Part shown: piece after piece, positions 935 through 60,738 of the stretch | Layout of the letters: the number at the start of each line of letters is the position of its first letter | How positions within the stretch are numbered: position 1 is the first letter of the stretch | Assembly: GCA_000965745.1 (NCBI GenBank) | Contig: CP009479.1 | Coordinates: forward strand, 940,457 to 1,004,456 | From: an uncultured archaeon | Lineage (GTDB): Archaea; Thermoplasmatota; Thermoplasmata; Thermoplasmatales; Thermoplasmataceae | Direction of reading: 5' to 3' | Length of the DNA stretch: 64,000 nt | Position numbers and translations under genes: made by a program | Notes under the pieces: model-generated | Seen by the model: only the letters and a program-made list of their open reading frames with translations | Told to the model about the DNA's origin: nothing | Database searches by the model: none

Positions 935-939
935 ATAAA

Positions 940-5297: not shown

Positions 5298-5348
5298 CCA
5301 GTCTACTGCCGCAAATAATACAATTACTCATAAATTCTACGGCCATAT

Positions 5349-5651: not shown

Positions 5652-5717
5652 AAATTTAAAAGTAAATTCAGGTGTATTAAGATTATTGAAATTACAATAT
5701 ATGATACCAGCTTTCAA

Positions 5718-6644: not shown

Positions 6645-6804
6645 ATTTATCGGCCTCTTTTCGAAATATTCCCCGGCACTTCCCGGAGCGTACATCAACC
6701 ATTCGCCCGTCATTCAAAACAGTTGCGTTCTTCTGCAGCATCGACACACAGCATTTTTCCGGCATTTGGTGAACCAATAAGTGTAAAATAGTAAAACTGG
6801 ATAC

Positions 6805-12840: not shown

Positions 12841-12847
12841 TTAACCA

Positions 12848-16469: not shown

Positions 16470-16490
16470 AAGGAGCACAATTAAGGGGTC

Positions 16491-27800: not shown

Positions 27801-29216
27801 ATGAAAAGCGGAGATCCCTTAAAGGCATGGCCCGATGTTCCAGTTAAGGCATACGTGCAGTTAACTGACAACGAGAAGAAACTGCTTGGACGACGACAGA
27901 AGATCATTTTGATCTGGAGTATCCTTGCCTCTTTCACCTATGCGTTAATCTGGTATTGGCTTAATGCAGTAGGTATAAGCCCGAACCCTACGTTGATCTC
28001 GGTTGCCCACACATACAGCTTTTCGCCGACACAGATTGGATATCTTGTATCAGCATTTGCTGCAGGTTTTATCATAACCAATTTTATCTGGGGGCACCTA
28101 AACGACAACTACTGGCCATATAGAATTGTGACAGTCGGCCTGATAGTGGCTGGACTGACGACATTGATTTTTCCCTATGTACACAGTCTCAGTGGCATGA
28201 TTGCAATAAGGCTGGTAGAGGGAATATTCAACGGTGCTGCCTGGTCCGGTCTGGTCAAGACCGTCCAGCTCTGGTTCCCCATTGAGAAGAGGTCAAGATA
28301 CCTCGGAATCATGATAGCGGTTTACAGCTGGGCTATTTCTGCCGACGAACTTCTGGGGCAGTCTTTCATGGCTGCAACGGGAGGATGGCAGGAATGGGCA
28401 ATCATAGTCGGAATCCTAGGGCTTGTTGTTGGTGCAATCACCTTTTTCACGGCAAAACCATACGGTCCGATGGTAGGCCTTCCACATCTTGACTGGGGAG
28501 ACGTACCGCCTGCTAAGAACATGACCTTCAAGAACGTATCAGTGGCTCTATACAAATTCAGATGGATGATCCTGGCAATCCTTTCCGGTTTCGTTGTAAT
28601 TGGAGGTGCCAATGTCATTAGTGCTTTCTACATACCGGACGTTCTGGGAGCAATACACCATATGACCGGCCCGCAGATCGGACTTCTGGCAACTGTGTGG
28701 GGAGTAGGTCAGGGAATCCTGATACTTATATTCGGCCCACTTAGTGACAGGCTCAGAAAGAGAGTGATATTCATCAAGATTGGACTCGGAGGATCAGTTC
28801 TGGCAATGATTGGTGTGATTTACGCAGCATTGACTCCGGGGCTCTCGATGCCAATGATGTACCTGATCACAATTTCAACCGGCTGGCCCTTCCTGATCGC
28901 AGGCCCGGTTTTTGCCCTTCTGGCTGACAGGTACGGGGTCCAGATGGTCGGTGCAGCTTCTGCCCATTTTGAAGGTTTTGGAACTGGTGGAGGTGCGTTT
29001 GTACTCCCGCTCATAGTGGGGGGAATGTCTGCATCCACAGCATTTGGCGTGACATCACCGTATCCATGGGTGGTAATGGCGGCAATATTCTTCGTGATAT
29101 TCCTGTTCTGGCTGCCACAGAAAGACTATACTGTTTCCCAGTCTCTTGTGGACGTTAAGACCCTGGAAAAGGAGAAGAGAGAGAAGGAAATAGAATTCGG
29201 CCTCGTGGAAGATTAG
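27801..29216 (+). CDS. MFS transporter
   Basis: Major facilitator superfamily carrier, 471 residues and twelve predicted helices. The N-terminal cytoplasmic part is about 40 residues; helix 1 is IILIWSILASFTYALIWYWL. The loop 2-3 signature is FIWGHLNDNYWPYR (G...D.....R) and its repeat in the second half is FGPLSDRLRKRV. The sequence belongs with organic-acid/aromatic-acid type MFS proteins in general appearance, but cargo cannot be named. It is divergent from the FAD oxidoreductase gene, ends in a charged tail (LEKEKREKEIEF), and is followed by the diiron-type gene. Confidence 0.88.
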   Translation: MKSGDPLKAWPDVPVKAYVQLTDNEKKLLGRRQKIILIWSILASFTYALIWYWLNAVGISPNPTLISVAHTYSFSPTQIGYLVSAFAAGFIITNFIWGHLNDNYWPYRIVTVGLIVAGLTTLIFPYVHSLSGMIAIRLVEGIFNGAAWSGLVKTVQLWFPIEKRSRYLGIMIAVYSWAISADELLGQSFMAATGGWQEWAIIVGILGLVVGAITFFTAKPYGPMVGLPHLDWGDVPPAKNMTFKNVSVALYKFRWMILAILSGFVVIGGANVISAFYIPDVLGAIHHMTGPQIGLLATVWGVGQGILILIFGPLSDRLRKRVIFIKIGLGGSVLAMIGVIYAALTPGLSMPMMYLITISTGWPFLIAGPVFALLADRYGVQMVGAASAHFEGFGTGGGAFVLPLIVGGMSASTAFGVTSPYPWVVMAAIFFVIFLFWLPQKDYTVSQSLVDVKTLEKEKREKEIEFGLVED

Positions 29217-29367: not shown

Positions 29368-30183
29368 ATGAGTTACAAGTATGACTTCGATCTGGAAAGA
29401 AAGGAACCTTATTCACCACAGGAGTTTATTGATCTCATGGGGAATATTGCTGAAGAAAGGTGGGCAGGAATACACCATCCGCTAGTCAAGAAATTCCTCA
29501 AGGGTGAGCTGTCTAAGGAGCAGCTCAAGATCTGGGCAATACAGGAGTACTGGTTTTACAAGGGACCATCATACTGGTCTGCGGCTGAAGCTGCGAATGC
29601 ACCCACACTATTGGATCAGCAGATACTCATGGACCCGCTTGTCACTGAGATGGGAACAGGCGAGAAAGAATCCCACGTCTCTCTCTACATTAAATTCTGC
29701 AAGGCACTTGGGGCAACCGAAGATGAAGTAATCAACACGCCGCTTCTCCCAGGGACAGTTTCTGGAGTGATGGAATTCTACAACATATGCAAATTTCTTC
29801 CACTTCCCGAGGCCCTTGCCGCTGAAAAAATAGCCGGTGAAAATGTCAATAAGATAAGGCACGAAAAGTATGTGGAAGCCTACAAGAAATATTACACATT
29901 TGTTCCAGAAGATGCAATGATATTCCATGCGGAACACGTTGAAGAAGATGTTGGGCACACACAGATAGGCCAGTACCTTGTCAAGAAATACGCGACCTCA
30001 AAGGAAGGGCAGAACAGAATGTGGGAAGCAGAGGTAAGATTCCTGGCACTCCAGTGGGTCCTTTACGATTCCATCTACAGAGTTGCCGTAGAAAAGGAGG
30101 ACGTCCCAACGTTCAAAGTAAGCCAGTTCTTCCCGCTCCCCTACTTCGACACCAATGACATCCCCGTTCCCGAATTCGACTGA
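29368..30183 (+). CDS. TenA/PqqC-like haem-oxygenase-fold (putative diiron) protein
   Basis: A 271-residue protein with the helical TenA/PqqC/haem-oxygenase-like fold. Helix 1 carries EERWAGIHHPLVKKFLKGEL, the second conserved region is QLKIWAIQEYWFYKGPSYWS, and the late helix MIFHAEHVEEDVGHTQIGQY holds an E/H/D/H cluster such as binds iron in haem-oxygenase-like diiron oxidases (HDOs). That spacing suggests an oxygen-using diiron enzyme rather than the thiaminase TenA, which uses a cysteine not seen here. It is followed after 4 bases by an SDR, so the two probably act on one substrate. Reaction unknown. Confidence 0.78.
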   Translation: MSYKYDFDLERKEPYSPQEFIDLMGNIAEERWAGIHHPLVKKFLKGELSKEQLKIWAIQEYWFYKGPSYWSAAEAANAPTLLDQQILMDPLVTEMGTGEKESHVSLYIKFCKALGATEDEVINTPLLPGTVSGVMEFYNICKFLPLPEALAAEKIAGENVNKIRHEKYVEAYKKYYTFVPEDAMIFHAEHVEEDVGHTQIGQYLVKKYATSKEGQNRMWEAEVRFLALQWVLYDSIYRVAVEKEDVPTFKVSQFFPLPYFDTNDIPVPEFD

Positions 30184-30187
30184 ATGA

Positions 30188-30988
30188 ATGGTGAATCCTG
30201 AAATGGCCGAAGTGAAAGGGAAACTGGAAAACAGGGTTGCGATAGTAACAGGAGGAAATTCCGGCATAGGACGAGGCATCGCTCTTGCTCTGGCGAAAGA
30301 AGGCGCATCTGTCGCCATTGGCGACATAGTCGACACACCAAGAGAGGGTGGAAAGGATACAGCATCGGTGATCAGAGACAATGGCGGGAAAGCCATTTTT
30401 GTCAAGACTGACGTATCGGACGAAAAATCCGTGGAAAATCTTGTGGAATCGGCAGTAAAGGAGTTAGGCAGTCTAGACATCATGGTCAACAACGCAGGGA
30501 TAACACTCATGAAAAGCGCCCTCGACACTAGTGGAGACGAATTCCTCAACGTCCTGTCTGTAAACGTGAAGGGGGCATTCCTGGGGTCAAAATATGCCCT
30601 GAAGCACATGGTCAGGGCCCAGAAAGGGAAGATTATCAATCTTGCGTCCAACTTTTCTTACAACGCCCTTCCTAACCTTTCCGCGTACGTGACATCCAAG
30701 ACTGCTGTACTGGGGCTCACCAGGGCACTTGCAGTGGAGTACGCGCCGGTGGGTATAAACGTGAACGCCATCTGCCCGGGAGCAACTAAGACGGAATTCA
30801 CCAGGCCATTCTGGGGAAACAAGGAAGGGCTTAGCGAACTCAAGTCAAGAACGCCTCTGATGAAGAACGGGGAATTCCTGGTGAAGCCTGAAGATCTTGG
30901 GAAGCTTGCAGTTTTTCTTGCATCTGATGATTCCGACATGATAACTGGAGAGGGAATCCTGGTAGATGCCGGCTGGAGCGCAATGTAG
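30188..30988 (+). CDS. Short-chain dehydrogenase/reductase (SDR)
   Basis: Classical SDR of 266 residues. Cofactor motif VTGGNSGIGRGIALA (about 18-32) is followed by an acidic residue at the end of strand 2 (VAIGDIVD), favouring NAD(H). NNAGI is near residue 100; the catalytic serine is in NLASNFS and the Tyr/Lys pair in SAYVTSKTAVLGLTRALA. CPGATKTEFTRPF follows as usual. A start at the ATG 30203 with GGTGA ahead is a close alternative. Tight coupling to the diiron-type gene suggests it oxidises or reduces that product. A T-run terminator follows. Confidence 0.9.
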   Translation: MVNPEMAEVKGKLENRVAIVTGGNSGIGRGIALALAKEGASVAIGDIVDTPREGGKDTASVIRDNGGKAIFVKTDVSDEKSVENLVESAVKELGSLDIMVNNAGITLMKSALDTSGDEFLNVLSVNVKGAFLGSKYALKHMVRAQKGKIINLASNFSYNALPNLSAYVTSKTAVLGLTRALAVEYAPVGINVNAICPGATKTEFTRPFWGNKEGLSELKSRTPLMKNGEFLVKPEDLGKLAVFLASDDSDMITGEGILVDAGWSAM

Positions 30989-31008
30989 AAAAATTTTCCA
31001 AAAAAATA

Positions 31009-31017
31009 TTTTTTTTT
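31009..31017 (+). terminator. T-run transcription terminator
   Basis: Nine consecutive T residues 20-30 bases after the SDR stop codon, in an A/T-rich stretch, form the type of oligo-T signal that ends archaeal transcripts. Confidence 0.5.
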
Positions 31018-31122
31018 CAAAAGCACACCGGCCATCCTACATAATCACATTTTAGCATGCTCTTGTAATCGCTGCTTCTAATGGTCGATAAAAATTTAAG
31101 CCCTTCTCACCTTAAAGCAGAT

Positions 31123-31944
31123 ATGAGCACTGAGAGCAAAGCAGAAGACATTATCAGAATGGTGTCTGAAGCCAAGGTCTATGACTTGGGACAGCCTTAC
31201 TGGAAGGGAATGCCTGTACATCCTGCCGACCCACCCTTTGTTTTCTTCCTGTACAGGTACCACGAGCACACTGCAAAACTCTTCAAGGATATAGCCCCGG
31301 GTTTCGCCGACTCGATCGGATACATGACTTCCTCCATGCACGCCGGAACCCATCTGGACATGCCGGTCCATATGTCAAGGAACCTCAAGGTGATGGGGGA
31401 GGACATAACAAAATACGAGGACGACAGAGGCTATGTCGATGTTCCCGAAAAGCTTCCCACAGTAGACAGAATTAAACCGATAGTTAAGCGCGCAGTGCTG
31501 TTTGATGTACCAAAGACCAAGAACCTGGACATTCTGGACGAGAGGTATGAGATAACACCCGAAGACCTTGAAAAGACTCTTGAATCGGAGAATGTTGAGT
31601 TGAGGCCGGGGGACTGTGCATTGATAAGAACTGGCTACTCGAGATTCTTTGAAACAGATGCTGACGCATACCTGCACAAGTTCGCAGGGCTCGGGGCCAA
31701 AGCAGCCCAGTGGCTTGTTGACAAAGGGGTATCACTCGTGGGCATAGACAACCTTGCTGCCGGCGTTCCGAAGCCTTTCGAGGTGCACAACATCATACTT
31801 ACGGACAATGGAAAATTCCTGATGAAGAGCCTGATGCTTGAAGATCTTGCAAAGGACAGCAGGTACGTTTCCATGGTCGTGGTCTCCCCCCTCAGGATAA
31901 AAGGCGGAGAAGCATCCCTTGTAAGGCCAATAGCTATCGCCTGA
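31123..31944 (+). CDS. Cyclase family protein (kynurenine formamidase-like), copy 1
   Basis: Metal-dependent hydrolase of the cyclase/kynurenine formamidase family, 273 residues from the ATG at 31123. The zinc motif is SSMHAGTHLDMPVHMS (HxGTHxDxPxH); other conserved parts are KVYDLGQPYWKGMPVHPADP, DCALIRTGYSRFF and LVGIDNLAAGVP. The start at 31123 has the TATA-like AAAATTTAAGC about 28 nt ahead; an ATG 14 codons earlier is open too. Family members hydrolyse formamides, cyclic imides or esters. This is one of three such genes in the island, each different. Confidence 0.85.
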   Translation: MSTESKAEDIIRMVSEAKVYDLGQPYWKGMPVHPADPPFVFFLYRYHEHTAKLFKDIAPGFADSIGYMTSSMHAGTHLDMPVHMSRNLKVMGEDITKYEDDRGYVDVPEKLPTVDRIKPIVKRAVLFDVPKTKNLDILDERYEITPEDLEKTLESENVELRPGDCALIRTGYSRFFETDADAYLHKFAGLGAKAAQWLVDKGVSLVGIDNLAAGVPKPFEVHNIILTDNGKFLMKSLMLEDLAKDSRYVSMVVVSPLRIKGGEASLVRPIAIA

Positions 31945-32085
31945 AAACAAACCCCATTTTTATACACATCTCATTTTTTGCCCTCTCTCCGAACCGGGTT
32001 GCAAGTTTCTTTTCTCTTCCGGAATTATGCTCAGCCAAAGCACAAAATTATTACATATAATCCTTCTATTCCAACTGGTGATACT

Positions 32086-33303
32086 ATGACTTCAGAGACA
32101 GGCAAACAGTATTATGGTGATGATTGGTGGGTCAGCCCCTTCAATTCGGTCGGCAACGATGAGATGAAAGTCAAGCTTCCTAAGAATGTACAGATTCATG
32201 ACGTTACTCTAAGGGATGGAGAACAGACTCCCGGGATAGTATTCAACAAAGACGACAAGGTAAACATATCAAGGGCATTGAGCGAGATAGGCGTCCACAG
32301 GATTGAGGTCGGGATGCCGGTCATATCAAAGGAGGAGAAGGACGCAATAAAAACAATAACTTCAGAGAAGCTCTCGTCCAAGATATTCACACTTGCAAGG
32401 CTTATAAAAAACGATGTTGATCAATCGGCAGAATCGGGCGTGGATGGCGTCATCCTTGAAACCCCTCTGGGAACCCCAAAGAGGAAGCAGCTCGGATGGT
32501 CTGTTGAAAAAGCAATGGACCTCACACTTGAAATGATCGACTATGCAAAATCATACGGCCTCTTTGTATCGACTTTTGGGGTTGACACAACGAGAACCGA
32601 GGAGGATATTTACATGGATTACATCAAGGCGGTCACAAAGACAAAGGCAGACTCGATCACACTGGTGGACACATTCGGCTGCATAACATACGAAGGAATG
32701 TCATATCTTGCGGAGAAAGTTTCAAAGCTGACAGACAAGCCTCTTGAGGTCCACACACACAATGATTTCGGCCTTTCAGTGGCATCCTCCTTTGCTGCGG
32801 TGGCAAAGGGCGCTTCAACGGTCCATGTCGCAGTGAACGGAATTGGCGAAAGAACGGGGAATGCTCCACTTGATGAGATTGCGACGGGCCTGAAGTACCT
32901 CTACGGTATCGACACCGGAGTTAAGCTGAACAAGCTCTTCGAACTGTCAAGGATGGTAGAGAAAAGATCTAACTTCATGCTTCCAAGCAACAAGCCTTTC
33001 GTGGGTACAAGGGCATTTGCAAGGGAAAGTGGTATATCTGTGGCCGGATGGGCAAAATTCAACCTTGGTTCAGAGCCAGTGCTTCCCGATGTTGTAGGAA
33101 ACAAACACGAGGTAGTCGTGGGGAAGAAGAGTGGAAAGGGCTCAATCGAGTACAAACTCAAAGAGCTTAGCCTATGGAATGACAACATCAAAGAGGAACA
33201 GCTTGAAAAGCTAATGATGATGGTAAAGGACAAGGCTCAGGCAACCAAGAAGGAAGTGTCTGAGGAAGACTTCAGAAAATTTGCCGGGGAAGTCCTCTCC
33301 TAA
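32086..33303 (+). CDS. LeuA/homocitrate synthase-like DRE-TIM metallolyase
   Basis: DRE-TIM family enzyme, 405 residues, making or breaking carbon bonds between 2-oxo acids and acyl-CoA. HDVTLRDGEQTPGIVF supplies the catalytic D-R-E; the metal ligands are in VHTHNDFGLSVASSF; GIGERTGNAPLDEI and HEVVVGKKSGKGSIEYKL mark the isopropylmalate/homocitrate/citramalate synthase branch. It lacks the regulatory LeuA dimer domain. The ATG at 32086 has GGTGATACT in front of it, so the longer reading from 31978 was rejected. Substrate undecided; its place among catabolic genes rather than leucine genes is notable. Confidence 0.85.
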   Translation: MTSETGKQYYGDDWWVSPFNSVGNDEMKVKLPKNVQIHDVTLRDGEQTPGIVFNKDDKVNISRALSEIGVHRIEVGMPVISKEEKDAIKTITSEKLSSKIFTLARLIKNDVDQSAESGVDGVILETPLGTPKRKQLGWSVEKAMDLTLEMIDYAKSYGLFVSTFGVDTTRTEEDIYMDYIKAVTKTKADSITLVDTFGCITYEGMSYLAEKVSKLTDKPLEVHTHNDFGLSVASSFAAVAKGASTVHVAVNGIGERTGNAPLDEIATGLKYLYGIDTGVKLNKLFELSRMVEKRSNFMLPSNKPFVGTRAFARESGISVAGWAKFNLGSEPVLPDVVGNKHEVVVGKKSGKGSIEYKLKELSLWNDNIKEEQLEKLMMMVKDKAQATKKEVSEEDFRKFAGEVLS

Positions 33304-33428
33304 TTTTTACCACATCTATATTCAATTTTTTCTGAGGTACCTAAACCTCACCGGAATTTTGTCAAACTTCAGTATAATGTAATGGCATCTTTTAAATAAC
33401 CAGTTTCAATTTTCTGTCCGGTGAAATT

Positions 33429-34274
33429 ATGAGTTGGGGAAAATCTCCGGGAAGCCCGGATGTTCAGGAAGAAATTGACTGGAAAAGAAAGCAGACCCCT
33501 CCTGGAAAGAGGCTGGATGGACAGTATGCACTTGTAACTGGAGCATCCAGGGGCTTTGGTAGAACCATCGCACTTGCTCTTGCAGAAGAAGGGGCACATG
33601 TGGCAGTCAACTACAACAGGTCCAAGAATGACGCAGAGGAAGTCGTTAAGGAAATTCAGTCCAAGGGGGTCAAGGCCATAGCTGTCCAGGCAGACATAAG
33701 GGACAGGAAGCAGGTTATTGCAATGGCAGACAAGGTCTGGAGCGAATGGGGCCGACTCGACATTCTCATCAACAATGCCGGTGAGACTGCTGCAAGCATG
33801 CAGTCATGGAGAGACATGGATGATGAGATAATAGATGAAACACTTGACCTTGATGTGAAGGGAACATTGTACTGCCTTCACGAATTTGGAATGAGGATGC
33901 TGGACAAGCAGAAAGAGGGCACAATAGTCAACGTTGCATCAAATGTTATCGTAACAGGAAGCCCGAGATCACCAGTATATGCTGCTGCAAAATACGGAAT
34001 AATCGGTCTGACAAAATCATACGCACTGGCATTCGCGCCGTATGTAAGGGTAAACGCAATGGCACCGGGATACATGGATACCCCTTCCCTCAGATCCAGG
34101 AAGGACTGGACTGATGACAGAAGGCAGTTTATGGTCAGCCAGACGCCTCTGAGATCAATAGGCAAACCGGAAAACATAGCCTACACTGCAGTATTCCTGG
34201 CATCACAGGACTCTTTCCACATGACTGGAAACACGCTTCTCTGTGATGGCGGATTTGGAATGGTAGGAGCTTAA
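33429..34274 (+). CDS. Short-chain dehydrogenase/reductase (SDR)
   Basis: SDR of 281 residues with a 28-residue N-terminal extension before the cofactor motif ALVTGASRGFGRTIALALA. The basic NYNRSKNDAEEV after strand 2 favours NADP(H). INNAGETAASM, the serine in NVASNVIVTGS and the Tyr/Lys pair in SPVYAAAKYGIIGLTKSYA are the catalytic signs. The end NTLLCDGGFGMVG is typical of FabG-like enzymes. A TATA-like TTTTAAATAAC is about 35 nt before the ATG. It lies between the LeuA-like and M20 genes; partner and substrate unknown. Confidence 0.9.
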   Translation: MSWGKSPGSPDVQEEIDWKRKQTPPGKRLDGQYALVTGASRGFGRTIALALAEEGAHVAVNYNRSKNDAEEVVKEIQSKGVKAIAVQADIRDRKQVIAMADKVWSEWGRLDILINNAGETAASMQSWRDMDDEIIDETLDLDVKGTLYCLHEFGMRMLDKQKEGTIVNVASNVIVTGSPRSPVYAAAKYGIIGLTKSYALAFAPYVRVNAMAPGYMDTPSLRSRKDWTDDRRQFMVSQTPLRSIGKPENIAYTAVFLASQDSFHMTGNTLLCDGGFGMVGA

Positions 34275-34315
34275 CCCTTCTTTTTATTTTCTAATTTTTA
34301 CATCAGGTGAAAAAA

Positions 34316-35590
34316 ATGAGTGGAAAGCAAGGTACGGATATAGCAAACGCAATAGACAAAGAGTATCTGAAGCAGCTTGTGGTTGACATGGTCAACATAC
34401 CGAGCCCTACAGGCAATGAGCAGCAGATGGGCGAATATGTGGCCCAGAAGATGAAAGAGCTCGGGATGGACGTAATCTGGCAGGAGGTCGAAGAGGGAAG
34501 GCCGAATGTAATAGGCATTCTGAGAGGAGACGGGACAGGGCCGTCACTGGAATTCGACGGCCATCTGGATGTTTCGTTCACCGGAACGGAAGAATTCATG
34601 TCGGGTGGCGCCTCTGCGGCTACAGCATCAATAAGGGAAGTCAATGGAGAAGACTGGATATTCGGAGTAGGGAGCTTCAATATGAAAGGGGCTCTTGGAG
34701 CATACCTGGCGGCTGTCAAGGCAATTGTGGACTCAAAGATCAAGCTGAAGGGAGACCTCGTAATTTCTGCTACGTGCGGAGAGATCGAGGAAACACAGGT
34801 GGACGACTTCAAAGGAAAACAGTACAGAGGATATGGCGCTGGTGCCAAGTACGCAACATCGCACGGAGTCCTTCCGGATTATGCAGTTCTTGGAGAGCCA
34901 ACAGGGCTTAACCTGATGATTGGACACTTCGGGTCATTCTGGGTAAAACTTACAGCAAGGGGCGGCACTGTCGTTCACACCGCATGGTCCAGGGAAACGC
35001 TGAACAAGATAGAGCAGTTCAACAAGGTTGTGGATCGTGTATCTGCCTGGAAGAAGGAGTTTGCTGACAAGACTCCCTACAAAGGGTACAACGGAATCGT
35101 GAACATAGCTGCAATCAACGGTGGGAGGCCATGGAAAGGTTCCAGGACCCCGGAGTCTGTTTCCCTTTACATGGACATCAGGTATCCGCCCGACTGGACT
35201 GCAATGCAGGTAAAGACAGAGATCGAAAAAATGGTTGAGAAACTCAACAGCGAAGACCCGGAGCTGAACCTTGTTGCCCAGCCGTATGCCATAAACCCGC
35301 CTACGGAAGTGCCCGATGATGCAGAGATAGTGACTGCCGTAAGAAATGCACACAAGCAAATCCTCGGCAAGGAACCGGGAACAACCTATGAACTCTGGTA
35401 TTCCAACGCTCCAAGTTTCAATGCACTCGGAGCCAAAGCCATAAACTACGGGCCATCAGGGGCGAAGAGGATAGAGGGGCTTACTCTCTCTGACAAGGAC
35501 AGGGAATATATCAACGTAGACGACCTGTATCAGTGCACAAGGGTTTACTCACTTCTTGTATCTGATATTTGCATGAGAGAAAGAAACTAA
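34316..35590 (+). CDS. M20 family metallohydrolase (ArgE/DapE-like) with Asp-to-Asn change
   Basis: ArgE/DapE-type amide hydrolase, 424 residues. Metal-site motif 1 is LEFDGHLDVS (H83, D85), the catalytic glutamates are in ATCGEIEE (about 156), and a lid domain carries KLTARGGTVVHTAWSR. In motif 2, where M20 enzymes normally have an aspartate bridging the two metals (GxDMKGG), this protein reads GSFNMKGAL with N122. The ATG at 34316 is preceded by AGGTGA; a GTG three codons earlier is less likely. Probably acts on an N-acyl or N-carbamoyl amino acid. A hairpin terminator follows. Confidence 0.85.
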   Translation: MSGKQGTDIANAIDKEYLKQLVVDMVNIPSPTGNEQQMGEYVAQKMKELGMDVIWQEVEEGRPNVIGILRGDGTGPSLEFDGHLDVSFTGTEEFMSGGASAATASIREVNGEDWIFGVGSFNMKGALGAYLAAVKAIVDSKIKLKGDLVISATCGEIEETQVDDFKGKQYRGYGAGAKYATSHGVLPDYAVLGEPTGLNLMIGHFGSFWVKLTARGGTVVHTAWSRETLNKIEQFNKVVDRVSAWKKEFADKTPYKGYNGIVNIAAINGGRPWKGSRTPESVSLYMDIRYPPDWTAMQVKTEIEKMVEKLNSEDPELNLVAQPYAINPPTEVPDDAEIVTAVRNAHKQILGKEPGTTYELWYSNAPSFNALGAKAINYGPSGAKRIEGLTLSDKDREYINVDDLYQCTRVYSLLVSDICMRERN

Positions 35591-35605
35591 AGTCGCCAAA
35601 AAGGA

Positions 35606-35638
35606 GAGTTTTAGAAACTCCCAATTTTAATTTTTTTT
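35606..35638 (+). terminator. Hairpin plus T-run terminator after the M20 gene
   Basis: GAGTTT at 35606-35611 and AAACTC at 35615-35620 form a perfect stem with loop TAG, followed by TTTT and then eight T residues at 35631-35638. Confidence 0.5.
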
Positions 35639-35717
35639 CAATAAACCACAAAATACCTGTTTCTATGCATTGATATATAAACGGGACCTTATATGTAATA
35701 GTTCGAAATACGAAAGA

Positions 35718-35724
35718 TTATAAT
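35718..35724 (+). promoter_or_regulatory. TATA-like promoter element of MFS gene 35742
   Basis: TTATAAT lies about 21 nt before the ATG at 35742. Just ahead of it TTCGAAATACGAA (35702-35714) has inverted TTCG/CGAA arms that might bind a regulator. Confidence 0.4.
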
Positions 35725-35741
35725 GAAATCAGAATCTTTAT

Positions 35742-37154
35742 ATGGCAAGAATTCGTAAAACAGCCATGGTTGATGAACCTGAAAAAGTATCTGAGAAGGA
35801 ACTTAAGGAATTGGAGAAGGCCGCGAAAGAGGAAAGCGGCGGATACATAATATTCCTTCTTGTAGTTGTTTACTTGGGGTGGGGGTTAATCAATACAGAC
35901 TCGAATCTGATATTGATTCTTTCAGGTCCAATTTTGAGTGCTCTAGGGTTGACATTGCAGCAATTCTCGTACATTGTATCGGCAGGATTCGCTGCGAGTT
36001 TCGTCCTCAGTCTGTTTCTGGGTCCACTGGGGGACAAGTTTGGAAGAAGATTTGTGCTTCAGCTCACGCTTGTTGGGACTGCGTTCTTTTCGGTACTGCA
36101 GTACTTCATCAACAGCTTCCTGAGCTGGTTCGGCATCAGGCTGGGAGCAGGCGCTTTCACTGGTGGTGAATGGGGTGCAGGTGCTACGGCCCTTTCCGAG
36201 ACAGTCGACAAGAAGTACAGGGGTTTTGTCCTCTCAATAATGCAGTCGGGCTGGGTTTTTGGATATGGTCTGGCCAGTGTGATTTCACTGTTCGCAATAA
36301 CAACATTCGGGGCCGCAAACGGATGGAGGATTGCTTTCCTGTTCGCCTTCCTGCCTGCAGTTCTCGTGCTCGCATTGAGGTTCTATGTGAAGGACCCTGA
36401 AAGGTTCAAGCATCTGAAGGACGTCGCTGCGGCCAAGAAAAGCGGAGACCAGGCAGTCCTAGCTGACCTTCTTACAAGGCACAAGGTAGATATTGAAAAG
36501 ATCACCATGCCAAGCTACAGGCAGCTCTTCTCAAAGGATCTCGTGAGGATGACAATAGTACTTGCATTCTGGAACTTCATAACAACCGGGATAGCAATTA
36601 CATCCAACACCTTCCAGCCAACATACTTCGAAGCTCAGTACTCCTTCGACCAGGTAACAACAATGTTCCTGATTGTTTCATTTGCAGGAATAATCGGGTA
36701 TATCGCCAACGGTGTGCTCAACGATCGTATCGGTGCCAAGTACTCCATAATGATATTCGCTGCTATTGAGGTACTGGGCATACTCTTCCTGACATACTCA
36801 ACAACCAACATTGTGAACCTGTATATATTCTACATAATGTTCTTCCTCGCAGAAAACGGTCAGTTCTCTGGTCTGATAAGGATGAATACCGAGAATTTCC
36901 CCACGAGGGTCAGAGTTACAGGTGCAATATGGGGTGGGGCTTTCTGGAGCCTTGGACAGGCAGTGTGGCCGCTCATTTTCGGTCAGGCTCTTGCAGTATT
37001 CGGTGTTTTCTCTGCAACTGGGATAAATATAGGGGCGTTCAACAACGCATGGCTTTACGTTGAGGTATTTCCGGAGATAATTGCCATCATCATATTCTTC
37101 CTGGTCATGAAGAACACACCGCCAAGGAAGGAGCTCGAAGAGATCGCTGTTTAA
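35742..37154 (+). CDS. MFS transporter
   Basis: Major facilitator carrier, 470 residues and twelve helices, with a charged 32-residue cytoplasmic N-terminus (EKVSEKELKELEKAAKEESG). The loop 2-3 motif is FLGPLGDKFGRRFVLQL; the second-half repeat is GVLNDRIGAKYSIMIF; GAFTGGEWGAGATALSETVD resembles the helix 4 region of the AAHS/MHS sialate- and aromatic-acid-type carriers. NTENFPTRVRVTGAIWG after helix 10 is the usual sugar-porter-like element. Probable cargo is a carboxylate. It shares overall plan with the MFS gene at 46828, including the same ending K...ELE(A/E)IAV. Confidence 0.88.
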   Translation: MARIRKTAMVDEPEKVSEKELKELEKAAKEESGGYIIFLLVVVYLGWGLINTDSNLILILSGPILSALGLTLQQFSYIVSAGFAASFVLSLFLGPLGDKFGRRFVLQLTLVGTAFFSVLQYFINSFLSWFGIRLGAGAFTGGEWGAGATALSETVDKKYRGFVLSIMQSGWVFGYGLASVISLFAITTFGAANGWRIAFLFAFLPAVLVLALRFYVKDPERFKHLKDVAAAKKSGDQAVLADLLTRHKVDIEKITMPSYRQLFSKDLVRMTIVLAFWNFITTGIAITSNTFQPTYFEAQYSFDQVTTMFLIVSFAGIIGYIANGVLNDRIGAKYSIMIFAAIEVLGILFLTYSTTNIVNLYIFYIMFFLAENGQFSGLIRMNTENFPTRVRVTGAIWGGAFWSLGQAVWPLIFGQALAVFGVFSATGINIGAFNNAWLYVEVFPEIIAIIIFFLVMKNTPPRKELEEIAV

Positions 37155-37221
37155 GTTTTGGAAAACCAAAACACCATTTATTTTTTAACTTACCTCTGAT
37201 TATAGCGAAGGAGTTGTACAG

Positions 37222-38001
37222 ATGAGCGATGACGGGAAAGAGATAATTTTCAAGGTACAGGGGAACTGCATAATAGTCGAGATAAACAGGCCCGAGAAGA
37301 ACAATGTGCTGAACAATGAAATCAGGAAAGAGATCGTGGATTTTCTTGAAAAGTACAGGGAGGACGGGAAGATCAAGAGTGTCATATTTACAAGCAACGG
37401 CAAGAATTTCAGCGCCGGTGCAGACTTAAACAACCTTCTGTCACTGGATGAGACTTCTGTAAAGGAATATACAGGATTCGTGAAGTATTTTCTCGAATTT
37501 ATACAGAATTACCCAAAGGTTACAATCGGTGCTGTTCATGGAATAGCAGTTGGGGGCGGTGTCGAACTTCTTCTTGCTCTCGATCTTGCAATTGCAACTG
37601 AAGATGCGAGATTCGGCCAGACTGAGCTTAACGTCGGCCTTATTCCAGGAGGCGGAGGAACACAGAGGCTTCCAAGGGCAGTCGGTGTAAGGAAGGCAAG
37701 GGAAATGATTTTCACAGGAAGGCTTATCAAAGCAGATGAAGCCTACCAGTATGGCCTTGTCAACAGGATAGTTCCAGAGGAGTCGCTGATGGATGAAGCC
37801 CTGAAACTTGCTGAAAGAATCGGCGAAAAGAGCTCGTTGTCAATTGCATTGGCAAAGAAGGCAATCAACGATCAATGGGCACCGTTAACCAACTCATTCG
37901 ACCTGGAATCGCAGCTTTATGCAAGGATACTTCTTGAAGACGACGGAAAAGAAGGCATAAGAGCGTTTCTGGAAAAGAGAAAACCAAACTACAGGGATTG
38001 A
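37222..38001 (+). CDS. Enoyl-CoA hydratase/isomerase family protein
   Basis: Crotonase-fold enzyme, 259 residues. The oxyanion-hole strands are FSAGADLNNLL (about 58-68) and VHGIAVGGGVELLLALDLAI; the second catalytic acid is expected in FGQTELNVGLIPGGGGTQRL, where glutamate is present as in true hydratases. GLVNRIVPEESL is the usual following motif. It hydrates enoyl-CoA thioesters in beta-oxidation-like routes. It stands alone, convergent with the MaoC-fold gene, which belongs to another hydratase fold; no thiolase, acyl-CoA dehydrogenase or CoA ligase is in the window. Confidence 0.9.
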   Translation: MSDDGKEIIFKVQGNCIIVEINRPEKNNVLNNEIRKEIVDFLEKYREDGKIKSVIFTSNGKNFSAGADLNNLLSLDETSVKEYTGFVKYFLEFIQNYPKVTIGAVHGIAVGGGVELLLALDLAIATEDARFGQTELNVGLIPGGGGTQRLPRAVGVRKAREMIFTGRLIKADEAYQYGLVNRIVPEESLMDEALKLAERIGEKSSLSIALAKKAINDQWAPLTNSFDLESQLYARILLEDDGKEGIRAFLEKRKPNYRD

Positions 38002-38022: not shown

Positions 38023-38454
38023 CTACTGTTTCTTTACCATTATAGTGTGCTCTACTTCCATGACTTTATCGCCATTCTGGTTGAAGACATCTGAATGTAG
38101 GGTAACTATTCCGTCTTCCTGCCTTTCTCTTTTTTCCTTGACGGTGGATTCACAGGTTATTGTATCCCCTATCTTTACGCTCTTTTTTGCCTTGAAGCTC
38201 GATCCAAGAAGGGCCACGAACCCCTTCTCAAACGGAGCGCTTGGAAACAGATAAATCAAGCCTGTAGCCATTGAGGCAGTCAGATACCCTGGCGCAATCC
38301 TGCCGCCGAATGAAGTTTTACTTGAAAATTCTTCATCAAGAAACAGGGAGTTATGAGCGCCGGTCATGGTTGAGAAGAGAACTATGTCTGCTTCTGTGAT
38401 GGTTCTGCCCTTGGACTTCTCCTTGAAATCATCCGTAAACTCTTCAAAATACAT
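38023..38454 (-). CDS. MaoC-like hot-dog fold protein lacking the catalytic dyad
   Basis: MaoC/(R)-hydratase-like protein, 143 residues, one hot-dog domain. The hydratase motif region is GRTITEADIVLFSTMTGAHN and then SLFLDEEFSSKTSFGGRIAP. In active (R)-specific hydratases this reads TGDxNPxHxD with the Asp-His pair essential; here those positions are A33 and F38. The rest, including IGDTITCESTVKEKRE, is standard. It may have another role such as thioesterase, binding protein or a dehydratase using other residues. The frame is open 37 codons upstream to a TGA but has no start codon there. Confidence 0.8.
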   Translation of the reverse strand: MYFEEFTDDFKEKSKGRTITEADIVLFSTMTGAHNSLFLDEEFSSKTSFGGRIAPGYLTASMATGLIYLFPSAPFEKGFVALLGSSFKAKKSVKIGDTITCESTVKEKRERQEDGIVTLHSDVFNQNGDKVMEVEHTIMVKKQ

Positions 38455-38732: not shown

Positions 38733-39596
38733 ATGAGACCTAGACCTTTTTTGCTTCATAGGCCTAATACACTCAAGGAGGCTTCTGAATTGCTTTATTC
38801 CCACGAAGACGCGAAGCCCCTTGCAGGTGGACAGAGCCTTATTCCAATGATGAAGCTCAGAATTTATTCACCAGAGGAAATTGTAATGATCGGCCATCTT
38901 CCGGAGATGCAGCCCGGGGTTAAGCAGGAAGGCAGCACCATTGTGATTAATTCTATGACTACGCATGATATGGTGCACCATAACGAACTTATATCGGAGT
39001 ACCTCCCCGTTCTCTCAGAGGCTGCGGCGGCAATCGCCGACCAGCAGATCAGAAACAGGGGGACAATAGGCGGAAACATAGCCCACGGTGACCCCTCAAC
39101 AAACCTGTCGGCGGCACTCCTTGCTCTCGATGCAAAAGTTCTTGCCAGCGGAAAGGACGGGCAGAGGGAAATCCCCATCGACGAATTTTTCCTTGATCTC
39201 TTCACAACAGCTCTAGAGCCCGGTGAAATAATTACGGGATTCAAGGTTGACATACCTAAAAATTCCAGGCAGAAATTCATGAAAATAACGCGCTCGGACA
39301 CTGCATTCCCGCTGGCTTTCGTTGCGGTGAACATCCAGCTTTCAGATGGTGTAGTGAAGGACGCCAGGATAGGACTTGGAGTTGCTGCCCCCACACCCAT
39401 AAGGGCTACTGAAGCTGAGGAATACCTGAAAAACAAGCAGCTCAACCAGGAAACTATTCTCAAGACTGCAGAAATGGCAACAAAGGATCTTGAGCCTCCG
39501 GGAGATGTTCATGCGTCTCCTGAGTACAGGAAGAACCTGCTCAATGTATTAATGAAAAGATGTCTCAACTCACTTTTGGAGGAGGTGAAACAATGA
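38733..39596 (+). CDS. Molybdenum hydroxylase FAD-binding subunit (CoxM/CutM-like)
   Basis: Medium subunit of a xanthine-dehydrogenase-family enzyme, 287 residues, carrying FAD between the FeS subunit and the external acceptor. FAD motifs are [15 protein letters not shown] (about 30-45, the AGGxSLxPxMKxR motif) and [20 protein letters not shown] (about 108-127, the TIGG motif). The C-terminal CO dehydrogenase flavoprotein domain ends in [14 protein letters not shown]-like sequence ([14 protein letters not shown]). First gene of the operon; its stop overlaps the start of the FeS subunit gene (ATGA). Confidence 0.93.
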
Positions 39597-40087
39597 TGGA
39601 AGGTTTGGTAAAAGTTTCAATTGATATTAACGGCAAGAAATACACGGATGATGTTGAACCGAGATTGCTTCTCGTGGATTTCATAAGGGATATTGCAAGG
39701 CTGAAAGGAACACACATCGGTTGTGATACCACAAGCTGTGGTGCTTGCACGATTCTCATCGACGGGATGTCAGTGAAGTCCTGCACAATGTTTGCAGTGG
39801 AAGCAGATGGCAGAAAGATACAGACAGTGGAGTCCCTGGCGACAGACGACAAGCTCCATCCCCTGCAGGAAGCTTTCTGGGAGCATCACGCACTCCAGTG
39901 CGGCTACTGCACACCCGGGATGCTGATGTCATCAACATTCCTGCTTAGCAGGAACAGCGACCCTACAGAGGAGGAAATCAGGGAAGGAATTGCAGGAAAC
40001 ATTTGCAGATGCACAGGATATATAAACATCATAAAAGCAGTAAAGGACGCAGCAGGTAAGATAAACGCCGGAAAGGAGACGGAGTGA
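39593..40087 (+). CDS. Molybdenum hydroxylase [2Fe-2S] subunit (CoxS/CutS-like)
   Basis: Small electron-transfer subunit, 164 residues with two [2Fe-2S] clusters. The plant-ferredoxin-type cluster is bound by [15 protein letters not shown] plus a later SC (KSCTMF); the second cluster, in the all-helical domain, by [11 protein letters not shown] and GNICRCTGY. This arrangement is standard. The ATG at 39593 has GGAGGTGAAACA directly before it and overlaps the stop of the FAD subunit gene; the upstream start at 39560 is rejected. It passes electrons from the molybdenum subunit to FAD. Confidence 0.94.
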
Positions 40088-40093
40088 TCCCGG

Positions 40094-42526
40094 ATGCCTC
40101 AAAAGGCTGAGTTGGTTGTAGAGAAAGCACCCGAAACAACGGCGGCTTTCAAGTACATGGGTACGCCCGTCAAAGTAGCAGAGGACTTGATTCCTCTGCA
40201 GGGAAAGGGCCAGTATCTGGATGATGTGGAGATTCCCGGGACACTTTACATGGCGTACACCCTGTCTCCATACGGGCATGCAAAGATCAAGAAAATAGAC
40301 ACCAGCAAGTGCCTGGAACTGCCGGGTGTTCATTACGTGCTCACAGGGGAAGAACTGAAGGCAAACATGGATCCTTACATGCAGATCGCCCCACCACCAT
40401 CTGGAAACCTGAAGGACTACCCGCTTGCGGTGGACAAAGTAAGGTACTACGGTGAACCGGTGGCAGCGGTAGTTGCTTCTAACGCATACATTGCCGAAGA
40501 TGCAGCTGAGCTTGTGGATGTTGAATACGAACCCCTTCCGGTGGTGACTGATGCTGAAGATGCTCTCAAAGAAGGGTCACCTGTTCTCCACGACTCGGTT
40601 GGGAACAACCTGGTCTGGAGAGGTGTCTGGGATCTTGGCGATGCAGAAAAGGCGCTGAAGGAAGCAGATTATGTTGTTGAGGATACGGTTAAGACTCACA
40701 GGTATGCTGCAGTCCCGCTTGAAACCAGCGGAGTGCTGGCAACATACGACCAGAGTGTTGACACCATAACAGTATACAGTGTAAACCAGATGCCCATGTT
40801 CTCGCTCCCAATCATCTGTGGAGCCCTGAGGATGCCACCGTCAAAATTCAGGATGATTCTCCCCCCAAACGTAGGTGGAGCATTCGGTGGAAAGATCATC
40901 AACTTCACGCACATTACAGTGGTAGCATATCTGTCAAAATTGCTGAAAGCCCCTGTGAAGTACGTGGAGAACAGGTCAGAGAACATAATGTCCGGAACGC
41001 ACAATAATGAGAGAATTTTCCATGTGAAACTCGCGGTCAGGAAAGATGGACGTGTGACAGGGGCATACATGAAGGCTGTGGACAATTGTGGGGCTTACCC
41101 AAGATATGAGCCTGCAGGAGCTGTAATCTGGGCTCAGGTTGTACCGGGCATCTACGACGTCCAGAACGTCTACGTTGATTTTAGCCAGGCAACAACGAAC
41201 AAAGGCCCGACAGGGCCTGTGAGGGGTTATTCGAGAATACAGCACAATTTCATGTGGGAAAGGATGATGAACCGTGTTGCGCAGAAGCTTAACATGGATC
41301 CGGCTGAAGTAAGAAGACTCAACCTCATCAAGGCCGAGCAGATGCCTTACGAGGGACCTTCGAGGACTATATATGATGGAGGGGACTACCACAAGGCCTT
41401 TGACACTCTCCTTGACACCATTGAGTACGGAAAGTGGAGAGAGAAGCAGAAAGAGGCGAGAAAACAAGGAAAACTCATAGGAATAGGCCTCTCTGCGGTC
41501 ATTGACTCAGGGGCAAACAATTTCGCGCAGGTTAAGATCATAAATCCGCACTTTCCAGCCTCAGGAAGCATGGAAGTGGGCCTGGTTATGATCGACCAGT
41601 TCGGAACACTGGTCGCCAGGACTGGAACTACAGACCAGGGGCAGTCCCATGCAACAACCTTCGGCCAGATAGTTTCAGAAGTGTTCAACACGGGCCCTGA
41701 GAATGTGGTTTTCCAGCAGGGTTTTGACTCAATAAGCAACGTTTGGGCGGCATTCTCAGGAGCGTATGCAAGCAGAAGCGCAGTAATGGCTGGAACAGCA
41801 CTTTACTATGCTGCAATTAGGCTTAAGGAAAAGGTTCTTACAATAGCAGCCCACGCTCTTGGAGAGCTCGAATCAGACCTTGAAGCGAAGGACGCCGCCG
41901 TTGTGAGCATGAAGACTGACAAGAAACTTCCTCTCGGGGATATTGCCACCCTAGCCTGGCTTGACGTGAACAAGCTTCCAGAAGACATGGAGCCGGGTCT
42001 GGTCAGCTATGCAGTCTACAAGCCGGACTTTACATACAATATGCCTGATGAAAAGAAGAGGGTCAACAACACCCTGACCTATTCATATGCAATACACGGA
42101 ACAGTCGTGGAAGTTGATCCTGAAACTTACGAGATGAAGATACTGAAGCATGGTGTTGTTTCAGATCCGGGTTTCATGATCAACCCGCTGGTTGTCGAAG
42201 GCCAGGAGATGGGTGCAACACTTCACGGAATAAGTGCTGCCCTGATGGAAAATCTTGAGTACGATGAAGATGGAATACTCTTGACATCCAACTTCTGGGA
42301 CTATCTTGTAGCAGGGGCGAAGCACATGCCAGACATAGACATGAAAACAATAGTAACAAGATCCACCAGTTCAGTTCTCGGTGTGAGAGGGGTCGGAGAA
42401 GGTGGAGGAGGACCGATAGGTTCAATAGTGAATGCTGTGGAGGACGCTCTTCAGCCACTCGGAATAAAGCTATTAAGCTCCAACCTATCTGCAAACGAGT
42501 TATATTCCAAGGCCAACAAAAAATGA
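40094..42526 (+). CDS. Molybdenum hydroxylase large subunit (xanthine dehydrogenase family)
   Basis: Molybdopterin-cytosine-dinucleotide-type catalytic subunit, 810 residues. The N-terminal Ald_Xan_dh_C domain starts GKGQYLDDVEIPGTLYMAY; the cofactor region has GGAFGGKI, TDQGQSHATT and, near the C-terminus, GVRGVGEGGGGPIGSIVNAV with the catalytic glutamate. The active-site loop reads TGPVRGYSRIQ, neither AYxCSFR of CO dehydrogenase form I nor AYRGAGR of form II. It is therefore an aldehyde or N-heteroaromatic hydroxylase of unknown substrate, not a CO dehydrogenase. It follows the FeS subunit after 6 bases. No maturation genes (coxD/E/F or mocA) are in the window. Confidence 0.9.
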   Translation: MPQKAELVVEKAPETTAAFKYMGTPVKVAEDLIPLQGKGQYLDDVEIPGTLYMAYTLSPYGHAKIKKIDTSKCLELPGVHYVLTGEELKANMDPYMQIAPPPSGNLKDYPLAVDKVRYYGEPVAAVVASNAYIAEDAAELVDVEYEPLPVVTDAEDALKEGSPVLHDSVGNNLVWRGVWDLGDAEKALKEADYVVEDTVKTHRYAAVPLETSGVLATYDQSVDTITVYSVNQMPMFSLPIICGALRMPPSKFRMILPPNVGGAFGGKIINFTHITVVAYLSKLLKAPVKYVENRSENIMSGTHNNERIFHVKLAVRKDGRVTGAYMKAVDNCGAYPRYEPAGAVIWAQVVPGIYDVQNVYVDFSQATTNKGPTGPVRGYSRIQHNFMWERMMNRVAQKLNMDPAEVRRLNLIKAEQMPYEGPSRTIYDGGDYHKAFDTLLDTIEYGKWREKQKEARKQGKLIGIGLSAVIDSGANNFAQVKIINPHFPASGSMEVGLVMIDQFGTLVARTGTTDQGQSHATTFGQIVSEVFNTGPENVVFQQGFDSISNVWAAFSGAYASRSAVMAGTALYYAAIRLKEKVLTIAAHALGELESDLEAKDAAVVSMKTDKKLPLGDIATLAWLDVNKLPEDMEPGLVSYAVYKPDFTYNMPDEKKRVNNTLTYSYAIHGTVVEVDPETYEMKILKHGVVSDPGFMINPLVVEGQEMGATLHGISAALMENLEYDEDGILLTSNFWDYLVAGAKHMPDIDMKTIVTRSTSSVLGVRGVGEGGGGPIGSIVNAVEDALQPLGIKLLSSNLSANELYSKANKK

Positions 42527-42538
42527 GGTGAAAAAAGA

Positions 42539-42979
42539 ATGAAATTTGAAGGATCCAGAGAAGTAAACACGAGTGCGCAGGCAGTATGGGATTTCCTGAC
42601 AAACCCAAACAACATGGCGGAGTGCCTTCCGGATGCAAAGTCACATGAAGTTGTTGACGACAAGACAATAAAGGCACAACTGAAGGTGGGAGTAGGCTTC
42701 ATCAAGGAAGTGTTTGACTCCACAATCAGCTATTCCGAAGTCACGCCTGACTCAAAGGACATGAAAATCAAAATAGACGCAAAAGCCAAGGCAAACACTG
42801 CCACTATAAACATCGATGTCCATGTGGACGGGGCAGACTCAGCTGCAAAACTCCAGTGGACTGTCGATGCAGTTATGGCTGGAAGACTCGCCAGCATTGG
42901 TCAGAGATACATCAGCAAGGTTTCTGACAAGGTCATAGAACAGGCTTTTGAGTGCATGATGTCCAAGCTTGCACCATAA
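42539..42979 (+). CDS. CoxG-like SRPBCC family protein
   Basis: A 146-residue START/SRPBCC-fold protein of the carbon monoxide dehydrogenase subunit G family. It begins MKFEGSREVNTSAQAVWDFL and has NPNNMAECLPDAKSHEVV and MAGRLASIGQRYISKVSDKV, all standard for CoxG. In bacteria CoxG anchors CO dehydrogenase to the membrane; relatives occur with many molybdenum hydroxylases. The gene begins 12 bases after the large subunit, with GAGGTGAAAAAAGA as Shine-Dalgarno, and closes the operon; an oligo-T run follows at 42984-42990. Confidence 0.9.
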   Translation: MKFEGSREVNTSAQAVWDFLTNPNNMAECLPDAKSHEVVDDKTIKAQLKVGVGFIKEVFDSTISYSEVTPDSKDMKIKIDAKAKANTATINIDVHVDGADSAAKLQWTVDAVMAGRLASIGQRYISKVSDKVIEQAFECMMSKLAP

Positions 42980-43832: not shown

Positions 43833-43833
43833 A

Positions 43834-57246: not shown

Positions 57247-57270
57247 AACGTTAACGTTACATGGTAACGT
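57247..57270. promoter_or_regulatory. Overlapping inverted repeats across the start codon of the APC permease gene
   Basis: AACGTTAACGTT (57247-57258) is a perfect palindrome. ACGTTAC at 57254-57260 and GTAACGT at 57264-57270 are perfect arms around the start codon ATG at 57261-57263. Together they give three ACGTT-type half-sites just downstream of the TATA box, covering the probable transcription start, as expected for a repressor operator. Confidence 0.45.
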
Positions 57271-58700: not shown

Positions 58701-58724
58701 AATTTTTAAATTGTTTCAGGGGAC

Positions 58725-59957: not shown

Positions 59958-60021
59958 ATCGGCATATGAGCTAATTAACGTTTCTTTCTGGAGCTCAGAC
60001 CAGGCTTAAGATATTGCATTA

Positions 60022-60675: not shown

Positions 60676-60738
60676 GCTCCGTATAACAGGAAAATCACAA
60701 TAAAACTTTCTAAGTAAATAAAGAAATGGAAGATTAAC

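Follow-up and report, generated by a model that had tools for sequence, protein, structure and literature searches.

BjMAMS has its catalytic machinery in common with isopropylmalate synthase. Its general base has been proposed to be His388, and the mutants E227A, E227D, H388A, H388D and H388E had no detectable activity, as reported in PMC11532901. A second described enzyme, 5-nitroanthranilate aminohydrolase (5NAA-A), uses a divalent metal to swap an aromatic amino group for a hydroxyl (PMC10306065 and PMC9814641), and the haem-oxygenase-like diiron-type oxidases/oxygenases (HDOs) are defined by a 3H/3C ligand set in PMC13108848. Candidate relatives of these enzymes were found in an eight-gene run of a Thermoplasmataceae archaeon, whose genome (G000) consists of 2,226,687 bases in a single contig. 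The stretch analysed, 64,000 nucleotides at 940457-1004456 of that contig, is called the window here and all positions refer to it. We tentatively read the run, at somewhat short of an even call, as part of a larger catabolic island that breaks down an imported acid, probably cyclic or aromatic and containing nitrogen. The last steps would be the cleavage of C-C bonds in 2-oxo acids and the oxidation of an aldehyde, and the DRE-TIM protein of the run would act as a lyase.

The eight-gene run

Eight consecutive open reading frames (ORFs) of the plus strand were confirmed between 29368 and 38001, as the initial annotation had described them. Families were assigned by Pfam and NCBIfam profile scans of the window proteins, which covered part of the window ORFs, and the earlier family calls agreed with these scans, except that the supposed M20 amide hydrolase was closest to 5-nitroanthranilate aminohydrolase. 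The run opens with the HDO candidate, referred to below as the diiron-type protein (29368..30183, 271 amino acids (aa); Pfam Haem_oxygenas_2/TENA_THI-4, Haem_oxygenas_2 at 2.2e-12), and the dehydrogenase SDR1 (30188..30988, 266 aa; adh_short_C2 at 1.9e-63). These are followed by CYC1 (31081..31944, 287 aa; Pfam Cyclase, PF04199), a metal hydrolase of the kynurenine formamidase/isatin hydrolase type, and by a non-canonical DRE-TIM protein (32086..33303, counted from the best ATG start of the ORF 31978-33303; HMGL-like at 1.9e-58 plus HCS_D2). The second half comprises the dehydrogenase SDR2 (33429..34274, 281 aa; adh_short_C2), an M20-fold hydrolase of the 5NAA-A type (34316..35590, best ATG start within the ORF 34307-35590; Peptidase_M20 and M20_dimer), the carrier MFSb (35742..37154, 470 aa; MFS_1, its nearest NCBIfam being an aromatic acid/H+ symport family, matched below the cut-off) and a protein of the enoyl-CoA hydratase/isomerase family, ECH (37222..38001, 259 aa; ECH_1 at 2.6e-66).

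The tight coupling of the diiron-type gene to SDR1 was borne out, with a gap of 4 bp and adjacency also in two further genomes (G032 and UBA582, below). SDR2 and M20 are 41 bp apart and the other neighbours 67-151 bp, distances that agree with separate putative promoters for several of the eight genes. G+C was even across the region (47.1% in the run, 46.5% in the whole window), so the block is not marked by composition as recent foreign DNA. ORFs of up to 217 aa are also listed on the opposite strand within it.

Co-inheritance of the gene set

Homologues of the run, searched jointly as the initial annotation had proposed, co-occur in four genomes belonging to at least two families: G000, G032 (same family as the host), 'Thermoplasmatales archaeon UBA582' and G112 (another family, 68% GC in the cluster stretch). 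In G032, 14 window homologues were located on one 19-kb stretch, 12 of them at 52-78% identity, namely SDR2 (a fragment at the contig end), M20, FAH, CoxL2, DRE-TIM, CYC1, the amidohydrolases AH1 and AH2, two MFS carriers, diiron and SDR1; the other two, HpcH and 2HADH, were weak (31-35%). In UBA582 one contig carries M20, SDR2, diiron (with damage to the first part from an unread base), SDR1, the carrier MFSa, CYC2 and APC1, and a second contig carries CYC1, DRE-TIM and CoxL2. On this second contig (C47, locus L129) DRE-TIM and CoxL2 are spread over separate frames in the way of a draft assembly, probably through assembly errors. The G112 cluster holds 16 window homologues within 28 kb at 25-61% identity (SDR2, FAH, DRE-TIM, CoxG, CoxL1, CoxS, CoxM, ECH, MFSb, MaoC, M20, CoxL2, PALP, AT-V, APC1 and CYC2), interspersed with genes for the hydantoinase HyuA and HyuB, XdhC/CoxI and a molybdopterin-binding protein.

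The core of the unit is formed by CYC1, DRE-TIM, SDR2, M20, FAH and CoxL2, which are inherited together in a few Thermoplasmata, and a co-inherited catabolic unit is well supported. Core genes persist at 41-51% identity in the high-GC genome G112. CYC1 lies directly upstream of DRE-TIM, M20 directly downstream of SDR2, and diiron next to SDR1 in the window, G032 and UBA582. SDR2 orthologues were found at 78% identity in G032 (the fragment), 73% in UBA582 and 41% in G112. The FAH-family hydrolase (53399..54451, minus strand; 70% in G032, 51% in G112) and CoxL2, a molybdenum hydroxylase/aldehyde oxidoreductase large subunit (54630..57035, plus strand) that is found in all four cluster genomes, form a divergent pair in the window and G032, and DRE-TIM and CoxL2 stand tail to tail in G032 and UBA582. 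Hence, the proposed limits of the unit, 29368 to 38001, were too narrow, since the MFS gene at 27801-29216 and the downstream FAH and CoxL2 genes travel along; the diiron gene is missing in G112, and the core takes in FAH and CoxL2, 15-19 kb downstream.

The combination is rare. Of 400 genomes of the class, three (G000, G032 and G112) have FAH matches at E<=1e-70, and the identical three have DRE-TIM matches at 48% identity or more, the next best match being at 43%; this cut was chosen after the list had been seen and coincides with a supported branch (96/91). Among the matches listed, M20 at E<=1e-40 was found in two of 389 genomes of the phylum, G000 and G112, and G032 was not one of them. 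Furthermore, window homologues (at least 35% identity over at least 60% of the length; 33 window genes scored) were counted in 26 other loci of 10-21 kb, mostly picked for holding a DRE-TIM or AT-V homologue. These comparison loci had 0-2 of the 33 genes each, the cluster loci L033, L036, L067 and L077 had 11, 8, 10 and 6, and the flanking loci L034 and L076 had 1 and 0.

Catalytic residues of the DRE-TIM protein

The DRE-TIM protein has HMGL-like and HCS_D2 domains and, as had been pointed out, Pfam found no LeuA regulatory domain in it. This absence proved uninformative, because the synthase of the host's own leucine cluster lacks the domain too; it is the lost catalytic residues that are diagnostic. 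In an alignment of 33 proteins (the window protein, the host's leucine-cluster protein, a G032 paralogue, UBA582 and the loci L038-L066), the catalytic Glu was replaced by V or I and the catalytic His by S, V or L in 11 of 11 members of one clade, and both residues were kept in all 22 others. The metal and 2-oxo-acid residues were kept in 33 of 33: LRDGEQ retains its Arg, Asp and Gln, DT its Thr and HxHND its two His. The altered proteins form this single clade with support of 100/100, the G112 and G279 members being on long branches.

No leuC, leuD or leuB was found among the scanned neighbours of the window gene, in agreement with the initial annotation, and the leucine cluster of the genome (HMGL-like, Aconitase, Aconitase_C and Iso_dh) is located away from the window, at 1.628 Mb. 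Leucine or citramalate biosynthesis was ruled out by this separate cluster together with the lost residues: the DRE-TIM protein, with Glu and His gone and a clade of its own, differs from the ordinary isopropylmalate and citramalate synthases. Judging from the residues kept and lost, a 2-oxo acid is most likely still bound at its metal, with no enolisation of acetyl-CoA, and this predicted mode of binding suggests a lyase or decarboxylase.

In G351, a genome of the sister subclade, the DRE-TIM gene is located close to a galactarate/altronate-dehydratase-type gene, a zinc-type alcohol dehydrogenase, a cyclase and a GntR/FCD regulator. Dehydratases of this type produce 3-deoxy-2-oxo acids, the usual substrates of pyruvate-releasing aldolases, and the proximity of such a gene favours a lyase over a synthase. 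The sister-clade loci L070 (G351, 84-8000) and L072 (G397) hold DRE-TIM proteins without the Glu and His near the dehydratase-type gene, the alcohol dehydrogenase, a PF04199 cyclase, an epimerase and the GntR-FCD regulator, the gene families having been scanned in L070 only; these loci are a second, different catabolic context for the altered clade. In a third subclade (L045, L046, L073 and L074, from G207 and G257) the DRE-TIM genes lie, as judged by eye, beside a methyltransferase-like gene, with no catabolic-type window homologues around them in these four loci. Additionally, plasmids were searched for bacterial relatives, and the listed DRE-TIM matches were below 40% identity; five that were inspected belong to the ordinary synthase type, with the His in five of five and the Glu in four, the remaining one having M.

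The M20 hydrolase, the diiron-type protein and accompanying enzymes

The best PDB match of the M20 protein was 5-nitroanthranilate aminohydrolase (5k8m; 5.3e-51 over residues 15-421), followed by DapE at 1.5e-16. Four of four orthologues carry Asn in place of the bridging metal Asp of M20 peptidases and lack the C-terminal metal His, and the same holds in the 5k8m alignment; we take both positions to be metal ligands in DapE. The NCBIfam 'ArgE/DapE' match fell below its cut-off (155.5 of 217.6), and plasmid matches were at 27-29% identity. The protein has an active site of the 5NAA-A type and is aminohydrolase-like instead of an ordinary amide hydrolase.

In the PDB the diiron-type protein was at much the same distance from PqqC (5e-12) as from pABA synthase/CADD (3e-11 to 4e-11). 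Its HxxxDxxH motif aligns exactly with that of pABA synthase, and a candidate 3H/3C set (E94, H103, E158, H190, D194 and H197) is invariant in three orthologues, one of them partial, with E153 as the alternative to E158 for the second-helix Glu ligand. PqqC showed no 3H/3C pattern in its alignments with the window protein. The AlphaFold2 model was poor (pLDDT 48), and the candidate fold is suggested by the PqqC/CADD sequence matches. A scan for close relatives in a contig collection of 84,980 species detected orthologues only in the metagenome-assembled genome 'Candidatus Thermoplasmatota' FK_Sedi_B_Bin.146 and in UBA582. Among 61 genomes, made up of the host's and those of 60 relatives, there was one orthologue besides the host's, and 34 further genomes gave remote matches only. 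G112 has no orthologue, its sole HDO/PqqC-like match (27%) being on a different contig and surrounded by no window homologues, and the plasmid search returned only two PqqC proteins at 23%; chromosomes outside the phylum were covered by the above scan for close relatives, with the diiron protein as query. The gene travels with SDR1 and the upstream transporter gene MFSa (27801..29216, plus strand; Pfam MFS_1; 60% in G032 and 70% in UBA582, beside diiron/SDR1) in three genomes, where the three genes look like an accessory module providing an optional entry step. Genes of TenA/HDO-like type encoding about 300 aa were also seen 2-3 kb from a class V aminotransferase homologue at G011:C1:1417798-1421960 and G028:C79:76042-79292.

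CYC1 keeps the HxGTHxD motif (as HAGTHLD), and its nearest PDB entries were 5ibz (an unnamed structure), other metal hydrolases, kynurenine formamidases and isatin hydrolase B. Of the amidohydrolases AH1 (49584..50894, minus strand; 52% in the G032 cluster) and AH2 (50958..52160, minus strand; 54%), AH2 groups with prolidase, arginine carboxypeptidase and ochratoxinase. The active-site stretch of FAH was canonical by eye, with an FAH-family protein and 5-oxopent-3-ene-tricarboxylate decarboxylase as nearest structures, and CoxL2 was nearest to CoxL and quinoline 2-oxidoreductase.

Putative pathway and alternative explanations

In the catabolic island that we propose, the imported acid, probably nitrogen-containing and cyclic or aromatic, would be prepared by molybdenum-dependent hydroxylation and, in three of the four genomes, also by the HDO candidate and SDR1. 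The M20 enzyme would then strip the amino group hydrolytically, ring opening at an amide or ester could fall to the cyclase and/or the amidohydrolases, and an alcohol would be oxidised by SDR2. FAH and the DRE-TIM protein would cleave 2-oxo-acid C-C bonds to yield pyruvate plus an acid or aldehyde, the latter protein as a metal-dependent lyase (retro-aldol or decarboxylation) and not as an acetyl-CoA-dependent synthase, and CoxL2 may oxidise the aldehyde released.

Several points weigh against this proposal. The chemistry, including the candidate substrate and the order of the steps, is what we infer from the gene set, and the loss of Glu and His is by itself no proof of a lyase. The similarity of the M20 protein to 5NAA-A is moderate and its clade may use other substrates. 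The scanned window proteins include no ring-cleaving dioxygenase and no CoA ligase, despite the CoA thioesters to which ECH and MaoC point. The G112 cluster lacks diiron, SDR1, CYC1, AH1 and AH2, and the rarity statistics rest on three to four genomes, at least two of which are fragmented drafts.

The main rival is a variant oxidative sugar-acid route of the diketo-hydrolase kind, which we consider unlikely. The SDRs would oxidise a sugar and a 3-deoxy-2-oxo acid, a lactonase-like cyclase or amidohydrolase would open a lactone, FAH would split a 2,4-diketo acid into pyruvate and lactate or glycolate, an FMN dehydrogenase would oxidise the lactate and the molybdenum enzyme an aldehyde. Such a route accounts for FAH, the SDRs, the lactate-type dehydrogenase and CoxL2, and the best NCBIfam matches fit it, although below their cut-offs: 2,4-didehydro-3-deoxy-L-rhamnonate hydrolase for FAH (133 bits, cut-off 500) and glyceraldehyde dehydrogenase alpha (NF041018) for CoxL2 (593 of 790). 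An FMN gene of the L-lactate-dehydrogenase type at 52272, an HpcH aldolase at 43128, enolase-superfamily dehydratases elsewhere in G000, G032 and G112, and the galactarate-dehydratase-type gene beside the sister DRE-TIM clade point the same way. Nevertheless, the cluster contains no enolase-superfamily dehydratase (PF13378 occurs at three places in G000, none in the window), and the 5NAA-A-like M20, the two prolidase-type amidohydrolases and HyuAB in G112 are left unexplained.

Less likely still is that no single pathway exists and the region is a scavenging island in which catabolic genes, each useful by itself, stay grouped through gene transfer. The 67-151 bp gaps between most genes, the scrambled order and missing modules across genomes, and the wide occurrence of AT-V without the cluster would suit it. 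The coincidence of FAH and close DRE-TIM relatives in three of 400 genomes, the conserved neighbours CYC1-DRE-TIM, SDR2-M20, FAH-CoxL2 and diiron-SDR1, and the survival of the core in G112 at the identities given above argue for one unit. We hold it similarly improbable that the DRE-TIM protein has remained a Claisen-type synthase with other base residues, making a branched 2-hydroxy acid in the pathway. The six residues kept throughout the alignment and its nearest NCBIfam families, which are synthases, would favour this; however, both residues whose Ala mutants had no detectable activity in BjMAMS (PMC11532901) are lost throughout the clade, and leuCDB-like genes were not among the scanned neighbours. 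A small-molecule biosynthetic cluster with the HDO as tailoring enzyme is very unlikely: PMC13108848 describes the HDO superfamily as serving natural product biosynthesis, but several MFS carriers, Mo hydroxylases, FAH, HpcH and a lactate-type dehydrogenase belong to the typical equipment of catabolism, and the HDO is missing from the G112 cluster.

Purine/allantoin breakdown, considered for the combination of Mo hydroxylase, amidohydrolases, M20 and class V aminotransferase, was dropped, since the amidohydrolases are prolidase/carboxypeptidase-like, the M20 is 5NAA-A-like and the class V enzyme is SufS/kynureninase-like. The gene set did not match the ectoine, nicotinate or kynurenine pathways as generally described.

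The initial interpretation is partly supported. Neither of the two results that were to refute it, homologues that never co-occur or an ordinary citramalate/isopropylmalate synthase, was obtained, whereas its boundaries did not hold. The cluster is real and conserved, and apparently undescribed in the literature searched: no description of it was found in open-access papers, subscription papers lying mostly outside the search, which does not show absence from print. Its genes belong to catabolic kinds already known, and one of its enzyme clades is misdescribed by the family name. Under family-based annotation the DRE-TIM gene would pass for an isopropylmalate synthase and the M20 gene for a deacylase or peptidase, which would mask a conserved degradation pathway. 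If the proposed reading holds, it would offer a natural example of a Claisen synthase scaffold redirected to a different reaction, an archaeal relative of the few known hydrolytic aromatic deamination enzymes and a concrete gene set bearing on what these archaea eat. The distribution is narrow and the substrate class a candidate only. A bolder version, which we regard as doubtful, is that the 11-member clade is a new type of metal-dependent 2-oxo-acid lyase, derived from Claisen synthases by losing the enolisation base, and that in these archaea it ends an undescribed route in which a haem-oxygenase-like diiron enzyme and Mo hydroxylases take the first steps and nitrogen is lost through hydrolytic aromatic substitution by an M20 enzyme.

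Further features of the window

ECH and MFSb travel with a MaoC/CoxMSLG block, composed of a MaoC-type hydratase (38023..38454, minus strand) and the molybdenum hydroxylase set CoxM, CoxS, CoxL1 and CoxG (38733..42979, plus strand). In the G112 cluster MFSb was matched at 35%, ECH at 43% and MaoC at 47%, and all four Cox genes are present. A second CoxLMS set was seen in G032 beyond its cluster (L034, C34 20001-37442), its neighbours by eye being acyl-CoA dehydrogenases, a thiolase, an OB-fold protein and CoA ligases. Further downstream in the window lie an HpcH aldolase and 2-hydroxyacid dehydrogenase (2HADH) pair (43128-44823), the weak matches of which in G032 are adjacent inside its cluster; CYC2, a second cyclase-like protein (44829..45710, minus strand; 53% in UBA582, 54% in G112); and the carrier MFSd (48280..49536, plus strand; 60% in the G032 cluster).

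The class V aminotransferase-like gene AT-V (60739) and an APC permease occupy 57261-61857, and an adjacent pair of this kind recurs in another genome (L107). AT-V is a separate, widespread unit, because it occurs in 21 of 400 class genomes; it was rejected as a cluster marker, 12 fetched neighbourhoods being without the cluster. A putative dipeptide/oligopeptide ABC transporter operon was noted by eye at 10935-16478, accompanied by genes of M20-like (9734) and isochorismatase-like (8156) appearance.

Comparison with described systems

The L-rhamnose/L-fucose diketo-hydrolase pathway likewise combines SDRs, an FAH-type hydrolase, a lactate-dehydrogenase-type enzyme and a Mo aldehyde oxidoreductase type; the window cluster differs in having no dehydratase and in its additional DRE-TIM, M20, cyclase and HDO genes. 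With haem-oxygenase-like dimetal oxidases (CADD/pABA synthase, UndA and BesC) the diiron-type protein shares the 3H/3C pattern and, judging from sequence matches, probably the fold family, but it misses the NCBIfam cut-offs of CADD (76.6 of 200) and BesC (19.5 of 500), and its overall sequence is about as near PqqC.

The 5-nitroanthranilate degradation pathway resembles the cluster in that the FAH family, to which the window hydrolase belongs, includes maleylpyruvate hydrolase. Its nitrosalicylate ring-cleaving cupin had no counterpart among the scanned window proteins, which do not represent every ORF, and the remaining window genes differ. The window M20 itself matches 5-nitroanthranilate aminohydrolase (5k8m) over the whole length; both have Asn for the bridging Asp and a GEI(E/D)...VD(D/E)F stretch, and both lack the C-terminal His. 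Finally, the Claisen-condensation-like DRE-TIM synthases (isopropylmalate, citramalate and homocitrate) have the fold family, the DRE motif, the metal and 2-oxo-acid residues and HCS_D2 in common with the window clade, whereas in the latter both the catalytic Glu and the catalytic His are replaced in every member.

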